Of a DNA stretch of 64,000 bases, positions 40,571 through 62,944 are shown piece after piece. The notes beneath the pieces were generated by a model that ran no database searches, was not told the DNA's origin, and saw only the letters and a list, made by a program, of their open reading frames with translations. Source of the DNA: Halorarum halophilum (GTDB lineage: Archaea > Halobacteriota > Halobacteria > Halobacteriales > Haloferacaceae); the NCBI RefSeq assembly GCF_013401515.1, contig NZ_CP058529.1, positions 3,348,001 to 3,412,000 of the forward strand, given 5' to 3'. The translations under genes were made by a program, and so were the position numbers. The stretch's first letter is position 1. Each line of letters opens with the position of its first letter.

Positions 40571-40694
40571 GGGTGGGAATGGAAGGGGCCGCTCGCTGAC
40601 CGAGCCCCGACGACGCAAGCACCGCAAGAGCGAACCGAAGGTGAGCGATTGAGGAGCACAGCGAGTCGCGGCCGGTCAGCGAGCGGGGGCTTCC
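40571..40694 (+). repeat. Covarying hairpin element, copy A
   Basis: GGGTGGGAAT (40571-40580), outer arm GGAAG (40581-40585), GGG, inner arm CCGCTCGCTGACCG (40589-40602), a 70-base loop, the exact partner CGGTCAGCGAGCGG (40673-40686), GGG, and outer arm CTTCC (40690-40694). A GCAAGCACC box is in the loop (40616-40624). Copy B (58581-58703, opposite strand) has the same outer parts but an entirely different, still perfect, inner stem. It is in the gap between the YgfZ-type gene and the geranylgeranyl reductase gene. Confidence 0.75.
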
Positions 40695-58506: not shown

Positions 58507-59028
58507 TTCTACGAGTTCCGAACCGGTGACGGCCGAACTTCGGTCGCCGGTGACAGTGACGAGACACCGGTGGTGACCGCGGAAGCCCCCGCGGCTGTCG
58601 ACTCGGGGGCCTCGCTGCGCGCGTTCGCTCGGCCTCCGGCCTCGCTCACGTGCTTGCTTCGTCCACCTTCGTCGACAGCCGCGGCCCCTTCCATTCCCAC
58701 CCCTCCGGCGTTCCAATCGAGCGAAGCGGCCCTGACTACCGAGTGCGCGTGGGTTCAGTAGTCCCACAGTTGTTCGTCGACCGACGGTCGGGGGGGAAGC
58801 GGTGGGCGCACCGCGAGCGGCGAAGCCGCGAGCCGCGCCTGCCGGGGAGGCGTGGGGAGCCACAGCGACGACCCGACCGTCCCCAGAGAGCGCAGAACGC
58901 CGGGGCTTTCGAGCGGGTTGTCACCGTCGGAATAACCCGATACTTGGCGAATCCACCGTCCCCGCGATCCCTCCCCACGGAGCATCGACTCGCAACCGTT
59001 AACACGGGTCCGCCCTCTCCAACGATAC
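58507..59028. other. 522-base gap between thioredoxin and eL40 genes
   Basis: Holds copy B of the hairpin element (58581-58703) and no convincing protein gene. Small open frames exist on both strands but read as Arg/Ser/Pro-rich junk. The rest contains the upstream region of eL40; an A/T run (CGTTAACAC at 58998-59006) lies about 27 bases before its ATG. Confidence 0.5.
58581..58703 (-). repeat. Covarying hairpin element, copy B
   Basis: On the plus strand: GGAAG (58581-58585), CCC, inner arm CCGCGGCTGTCGAC (58589-58602), a 68-base loop, the exact partner GTCGACAGCCGCGG (58671-58684), CCC, CTTCC (58688-58692), then ATTCCCACCCC. Reversed, it has the same outer parts as copy A at 40571-40694, with a different but still perfect 14-base inner stem. 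The loop has GTGCTTGC (58650-58657), shared with copies A and C. Confidence 0.75.
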
Positions 59029-62781: not shown

Positions 62782-62944
62782 GGGTGTTCCTGCGGGCGCT
62801 TGCGATTCAGGTGCGCGCGACCGACGGCCGCGGCACCCACATTTCGTCCCGGCGTACCGGGTGCCCACTGGCGGCCCACCTGCCAGCGAGTTATCGGGAG
62901 TACCGCGGGGGCGCTGTTAAGGACTTCGAAGCGGCGTCGCCGCG

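Follow-up and report, generated by a model that had tools for sequence, protein, structure and literature searches.

A dispersed hairpin repeat family of haloarchaea with covarying stems, four conserved G tracts and a possible one-strand quadruplex fold

Two hairpins in the window, a stretch of 64,000 nucleotides from Halorarum halophilum (C1:3348001-3412000 in the coordinates of its genome, G000), belong to a repeat family dispersed throughout haloarchaea, whose base pairs are kept by paired changes and whose four G tracts are conserved even better than the pairs. It is nearly certain that structure is under selection in this family. From the sequences compared here we favour, with somewhat less than even confidence, a dispersed, non-autonomous, non-coding element in which one DNA strand would fold into a hairpin plus a G-quadruplex and act as a recognition signal.

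Two copies in the window

The initial annotation had described two copies in opposite orientation, and both were found where it had placed them, copy A at 40571-40694 on the plus strand and copy B at 58581-58703 on the minus strand, each in a gap between convergent genes. As it had claimed, both have an outer stem GGAAG:CTTCC with GGG/GGG inside, and perfect 14-base inner stems that differ in sequence between the copies (CCGCTCGCTGACCG/CGGTCAGCGAGCGG in A, CCGCGGCTGTCGAC/GTCGACAGCCGCGG in B). The flank GTGGGAAT, reported as common to both, is present but incomplete, given that the two preceding bases, GG, are also conserved. Similarly, the GGG/GGG that had been called unpaired is, with the flank, the most conserved part, and the four G tracts that result had been missed.

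In copy A (all features on the plus strand), the 5' flank GGGTGGGAAT (40571-40580) consists of a tail carrying G tracts 1 and 2 (GGG-T-GGG, 40571..40577) and a linker AAT (40578..40580; usual form ACT), with A at position -3 in 273 of the 274 copies of the family and T at position -1 in 270. It is followed by the 5' arm GGAAG of the outer stem (40581..40585), the partner of 40690-40694 in a stem whose three types covary, and by G tract 3 (40586..40588), one side of a GGG/GGG loop present in 272 of 274 copies, most of which were found with a pattern already containing GTGGGA and AAGGGG. The 5' arm of the inner stem, CCGCTCGCTGACCG (40589..40602), is the perfect complement of 40673-40686 and leads into an interior of class I (40603..40672) made up of short helices, internal loops of the conserved sequences GCAAGCACCGCA/GAGGAGCACAGCGA, and a triloop, GAA. 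The hairpin closes through the 3' arm of the inner stem, CGGTCAGCGAGCGG (40673..40686), G tract 4 (GGG, 40687..40689) and the 3' arm CTTCC of the covarying outer stem (40690..40694).

Copy B has the same frame on the minus strand, with G tracts 1 and 2 at 58703-58701 and 58698-58696, the outer stem at 58692-58688/58585-58581, G tracts 3 and 4 at 58687-58685 and 58588-58586, and the inner stem, with arms CCGCGGCTGTCGAC/GTCGACAGCCGCGG, at 58684-58671/58602-58589. Upstream of it on that strand lie a hairpin, P0 (GACTAC...GTAGTC, 58734..58763), in a central module of its own genus, and a second hairpin module belonging to the central part (GACGGTCGGG...CCCGACCGTC, approximate limits 58785..58885). 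The module containing P0 adjoins many copies and is also present in the sister species G292. Further out, GAAAGCCCC (58902..58910, minus strand) is, by comparison with complete pairs, probably a remnant of a lost partner hairpin. Copy B, which spans 58581-58910 with this remnant, thus looks from its sequence like one remaining half of a longer element with dyad symmetry, whose left hairpin is mostly gone.

A search of the whole window with the Rfam 15 covariance models gave no match to the elements, which sets aside a known RNA family. The only Rfam family above its gathering score in the window was the eL15-Euryarchaeota ribosomal protein leader (RF03144), at 62799-62861 on the minus strand (42.8 bits).

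Distribution and genomic context

A covariance-model search of this genome and of other haloarchaea, as had been suggested with the two copies, recovered many further copies throughout the group. The window genome itself holds about 60-70: the frame GTGGGAATGGAAGGGG, with up to two mismatches, matches 59 times and the reversed pattern never, and the covariance model finds 69 copies. When one mismatch is allowed, GTGGGANTGRAAGGGGC matches 101 times in the sister species G026 and 89 times in G292. Without mismatches, the motif was found in 145 of the 292 haloarchaeal genomes, with up to 75 matches per genome and two control hits in total, and it is present in 51 of 77 genera, so that the flanks shared by A and B are not a coincidence confined to one genome. 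Chance hairpins are ruled out by these frame and motif counts, which stand far above their controls, as well as by the covariation score given below.

Genomes lacking the exact motif may also carry the family, as in G006, where the covariance model found about 90 further copies with the outer stem CGAAG/CTTCG. Related genomes carry anywhere between 0 and about 100 copies. Among the genera represented are Halobaculum, Haladaptatus, Haloarcula, Halorussus, Halosimplex, Salinarchaeum, Natronococcus, Halomarina and Halonotius. In a phylum-wide sample searched with strict filters, 21 of 26 haloarchaeal genomes were positive and none of 132 non-haloarchaeal genomes was, the 26/132 split being read from genome labels.

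With genes predicted by a simple codon model, only one of 174 copies overlapped a gene. The 153 gaps classified were tandem (85), divergent (41) or convergent (27), and in 94 of the 153 the 3' side of the element pointed towards a gene of its own orientation. With only 27 convergent gaps, a role as intrinsic terminators between convergent genes was discarded, and a replication-strand bias was likewise discarded, given that plus and minus orientations were about equal by eye count among the G006 matches listed. Among the matches listed in plasmid records, the megaplasmid copies had almost no annotated feature beneath them.

Anatomy and covariation of the hairpin

Read 5' to 3', the repeat consists of GGG-N-GGG-A-M-T, a 5-bp outer stem, GGG, an inner stem of 12-14 bp whose sequence is free between copies, and a rod built of short helices and conserved loops of non-Watson-Crick type (GA/GA, A/A and AA/GCA), ending in a small apical loop, after which come the 3' arm of the inner stem, GGG, the 3' arm of the outer stem and about nine lineage-typical bases (GAGGTGTTC, TGGCTGTTC or TACAC..TGTTG). 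Most interiors belong to class I, in which CAAGCACCGCA faces GAGGAGCGCAGCGA on the opposite side, and a second class has CAGCGACCCCTATC/GATATGTCGCTGAGCGAC.

Paired changes run through almost the entire structure. In 60 class I copies, double compensatory changes were seen in 21 of the 28 predicted pairs; in 115 model-aligned copies, including the G006 type, 96.5% of cells were paired and the number of pairs with double changes rose to 25 of 28. The covariation score of these 115 copies was 0.654, against 0.154 +/- 0.007 for shuffled alignments and at most 0.096 for slid registers, controls built without phylogeny; this alignment was fitted to the structure, and the fairer number comes from the plain-sequence alignment A1, 0.542 against 0.136. 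The outer stem occurs in three matched types distributed across lineages, GAAAG/CTTTC (79), CGAAG/CTTCG (17) and GGAAG/CTTCC (12). The selection for structure that had been proposed from two copies alone is therefore borne out by more than one hundred further ones with controls far below, and further copies free of paired changes, which would have spoken against it, are not what the family presents.

Some copies consist of only 28-30 bp and have no hairpin (GTGGGACTGAAAGGGGCCGCGGGGGCTTTC), the minimal form being GGGTGGGACTGAAAGGGGCCGCGGGGGCTTTC. At one site (L035 versus L241) such a copy stands where the sister species holds a full one, as expected from deletion between the CCGCGG repeats of both arms.

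Several variants were also seen. Class II interiors in genus g27 (L045, L047, L054, L055, L056, L058) look like orthologues, with inner stems identical across species and with variable loops and central pairs. At L009, L205 and L268 the hairpin interior runs the other way round within its outer frame, as if the arms had recombined. A nested insert, GTGGTTCG...CGAACCAC, in which TGATGAC or its complement links two hairpins, sits in either orientation inside different copies (L123, L139, L202, L268). Downstream of the hairpin at L372 (G153:C1:2726960-2727600) and related sites there are tandem units of about 56 bp, each with the 3' end of the element, GGGGCTTTGGNGGTGTTC, and a TTTATAA box, which may be a promoter array or the traces of repeated insertion.

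Tail-to-tail pairs

Many genera carry copies in twos, set tail to tail, and this orientation was found in all 31 pairs resolved. Their centre lengths cluster at 22, 27-31, about 190 and about 290 bp, their ends read GAACANCNN-GAAAGCCCC / GGGGCTTTC-NNGNTGTTC, and the short form can be drawn as a four-way junction of the outer flanks, the two hairpins and a centre stem. Outer flanks agree within pairs at 113 of 153 positions, compared with 80.9 +/- 5.6 after shuffling, an agreement that may come in part from the lineage typing of the flanks. The G006-type copies examined have an upstream hairpin whose stem is variable yet paired.

A second conserved module, GGCTGGGGAGGGTGAGG, with a preceding hairpin of its own, was noticed some 30-100 bp upstream of the tail at L023, L069, L083, L087 and other loci. 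It accompanies many copies, as well as all 20 G006-type copies examined, and may be a separate repeat family.

Inheritance and movement

All three species of the genus carry a copy at site A. The frame and the outer half of the stem are identical among them (the outer ten bases of the inner stem are the same at the orthologous site of both sister species), the adjoining intergenic sequence is hardly alignable, and the interior is inverted in G292. At other shared sites (L003/L244, L030) the stems are wholly different and still paired. G026, on the other hand, lacks site B and G292 has it in degenerate form, and one site in the G006 genus is empty in seven species, with 31-72 bp between conserved flanking blocks, and occupied in ten of the species examined. 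Shared sites together with occupied and empty ones indicate that the elements both persist and turn over.

The hairpin-dependent movement raised in the initial annotation is plausible in the light of sites that are occupied in some species and empty in others, but neither a transposase nor a target duplication was found to go with it. The Y1 transposase (PF01797), present in 201 of 292 haloarchaeal genomes, has no match in G000 and G026, two of the three genomes of the genus, the latter with 101 copies, and on this ground REP/RAYT or IS200-type mobilisation was rejected for this genus. No consistent target duplication surrounds the 31 pairs, and one polymorphic site has a possible TGTAA duplication. 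A search of limited depth also turned up no autonomous transposon as partner to the ends of the pairs. A virus-borne element was also rejected, since the IMG/VR matches in the copy table lack the hairpin and phage records gave no match. On the reading preferred here, the elements would spread as non-autonomous repeats, or be copied from site to site by recombination, and would afterwards be inherited vertically.

G tracts and the putative fold

The best-conserved parts of the element are the four G tracts of the GGG-N-GGG tail and the GGG/GGG loop, ahead of the base pairs. The tail is intact in 241 of 274 copies, its two leading G lying outside every search pattern used, and all four tracts are in register in 239 of 274; about 12% of copies lack one tail tract. 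The base N is mostly T or C, and so appears to act as a spacer. In 224 of 318 tailed copies the 420 nt upstream contain no inverted partner tail, so that pairing with a partner does not account for the conservation of the tail. All 20 hairpin-less copies with a GGGNGGG tail match the canonical quadruplex motif (G3+N1-7 x3 G3+). A stem-loop-containing quadruplex sequence is defined by four runs of three or more G and a long loop of which at least half is base-paired. The full copies fit this definition, with short loops of 1 and 7 nt and, between tracts 3 and 4, the covarying hairpin itself as the long loop.

Haloarchaea accumulate molar K+, and K+ stabilises G-quadruplexes. From this, the four G tracts and the duplex-forming loop, we infer a quadruplex-duplex hybrid: whenever the GTGGG strand becomes single, its four G tracts would form a three-layer G-quadruplex in the molar potassium of the cell, with the hairpin as one of its loops, and the folded form would be a signal recognised by a putative protein. 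Quadruplexes containing duplex stem-loops are a known structural type (PMC4477648). The most likely cellular role would be that of intergenic DNA-structure sites, for protein binding or as supercoil or transcription boundaries. Against the quadruplex, the hairpin loop of 90-120 nt is long, the G tail in divergent pairs can pair with the C tract of the partner instead, and the covarying outer stem lies between G tracts 2 and 3, so that both structures must either fit into the same space or form in turn.

Several features suggest single-stranded DNA as the folding molecule. Among 128 copies folded with RNA parameters, the apical loop was a GNA triloop in 67 and a GNRA tetraloop in three, loops that are less clear with DNA parameters; in DNA, mini-hairpins with GNA or GNNA loops are reported to be of extraordinary stability (PMC4686876). 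Only about 2% of helix cells are G-T pairs. That one strand is favoured is indicated by the excess of G-T over A-C (66 versus 19) and by the GTGGG strand, which in 70-80% of copies gives a better fold than the complementary one. We read the GNA loops, the few G-T pairs and the strand bias as the folding of one DNA strand, although the excess of G-T over A-C would be expected for RNA as well.

Alternative explanations

Paired stems could persist unselected if template switching or gene conversion copied one arm onto the other, and orthologous copies with wholly different yet paired stems, or with an inverted interior, fit such neutral maintenance, as does the possible deletion of hairpins between the CCGCGG direct repeats. 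Mismatched loops would be erased by this process, however, and yet the GA/GA, A/A and AA/GCA loops are conserved, and GGG/GGG, which arm-to-arm copying would turn into GGG/CCC, is intact in all but two of 274 copies. Copying alone is thus insufficient, which also disposes of the suggestion that the element merely copies its stem from arm to arm; the outer frame is, in addition, kept where the adjoining intergenic sequence can hardly be aligned. Neutral maintenance is already disfavoured, and we consider it very improbable. That the family is a non-autonomous mobile element of MITE, PATE or REP kind, whose structure serves only a hairpin-acting transposase and has no cellular role, is less remote though still unlikely. 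The wide spread of copy number between related genomes, the occupied and empty sites within one genus, the lineage-specific flanks and central modules, two paralogues in G026 that are 91.5% identical over 425 bp and end just past CTTTC, and the copies on megaplasmids all fit mobility, whereas the lack of PF01797 in G000 and G026, the lack of target duplication around the 31 pairs and the many sites common to sister species despite diverged surrounding DNA do not, nor do stems that differ between copies, unlike recent copies of one master.

If the divergent pair were the real unit, a dyad-symmetric protein site or a cruciform drawn as a four-way junction, single copies would be decayed halves. 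The 31 tail-to-tail pairs with their clustered centres, the flank agreement within pairs and a central GCCGGTTGGTCAGCCGGC-like palindrome speak in its favour, but the G006-type copies examined (20 of about 90) are single, with another upstream hairpin and no partner tail, tails can differ within one pair in the genus of the window, and the flank agreement may reflect lineage rather than pairing; this explanation seems to us improbable. The main rival to a DNA fold is, in our judgement, a structured RNA, with elements transcribed from their own promoter or within untranslated regions and selection acting on the RNA fold of the GTGGG strand, for example as a multi-copy protein-binding or regulatory RNA family. 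Strong covariation with one-strand polarity, internal loops similar to RNA motifs and a 3' side that in 94 of 153 cases is followed, about 110 bp further on, by a gene in the same orientation would all suit an RNA, but it would be expected neither to have apical GNA triloops and almost never GNRA tetraloops nor to limit G-U to about 2% of helix cells. Dyad-symmetric divergent pairs in many genera would be odd for one transcript, no Rfam family matches, and minimal copies keep the G tracts after the whole hairpin is gone. A structured RNA therefore strikes us as a serious but rather unlikely candidate, and the one-strand DNA fold remains the reading we prefer. Its fullest version, taken as one joint proposition, is that this is the first class-wide family of constrained G-quadruplex-duplex hybrids, with thousands of homologous sites in haloarchaeal chromosomes, folding as single-stranded DNA in molar potassium, selected for DNA shape and recognised by a putative protein; we advance it tentatively, as possible but open to doubt.

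Relation to known systems

A search of the literature by frame sequence and keyword, covering little of the subscription literature, returned no prior description, and the family is apparently undescribed so far. It is common and abundant in haloarchaea without a name or an annotation, and thus bears on gene annotation, promoter mapping and genome comparison in these organisms.

BOX, ERIC and BIME elements are likewise modular, palindromic, intergenic, dispersed and partly inherited vertically, but they are bacterial, have sequence-conserved stems and lack a core of four G tracts. Within the repeat, GTGGGACTGAAAG resembles the 3' end of a haloarchaeal CRISPR repeat (GTGGGATTGAAGC) in 10 of 13 letters, which is probably a coincidence; no CRISPR-like array arrangement was seen there, and the sequence that follows is self-complementary. 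Inspection against the integron attC consensus showed no R-box at the foot, and the copies are dispersed singles or divergent pairs rather than members of cassette arrays.

REP/RAYT systems (PMC3733652) are close in several respects. They too are small hairpins between genes, numbering tens to hundreds per genome, as single units and inverted pairs, with a conserved G-rich tag 5' of the hairpin, and GTGG is a tag variant in one REP family. Most REP stems, however, measure 6-9 bp and have a sequence particular to their family, whereas the haloarchaeal repeat is a rod of 100 nt in which the stem sequence is free, a GGG/GGG loop is present and 25 of 28 pairs show double changes. On the 5' side of its hairpin foot stands an 8-nt conserved tail, GYGGGAMT, which is not GTAG/CGTC, and no Y1 transposase accompanies it in G000 or G026. 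The MITEs, PATEs and SMRs of Haloquadratum walsbyi are also transposase-free dispersed repeats of a haloarchaeon, PATEs with near-terminal palindromes, but they are described (PMC3119063) as families tied to known transposons, IS605-type ends or targets of their own, and none was seen there with this frame, covariation or G tracts. Term searches of that paper, of two REP surveys (PMC3733652, PMC12306157) and of an archaeal quadruplex survey (PMC7565180) showed no such family.

The repeat resembles the stem-loop-containing quadruplexes surveyed in PMC4477648 in that one strand carries four runs of three or more G and the long loop folds into a duplex stem-loop. That survey lists predicted human sites, whereas here the tracts and the duplex belong to a homologous family and are conserved across an archaeal class, while the quadruplex itself is a prediction. 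The repeat is found across the class and in none of the sampled rest of the phylum, and its G tracts and pairs are kept while the sequence drifts; it would offer a natural test bed for the question whether such DNA structures are selected in living cells.
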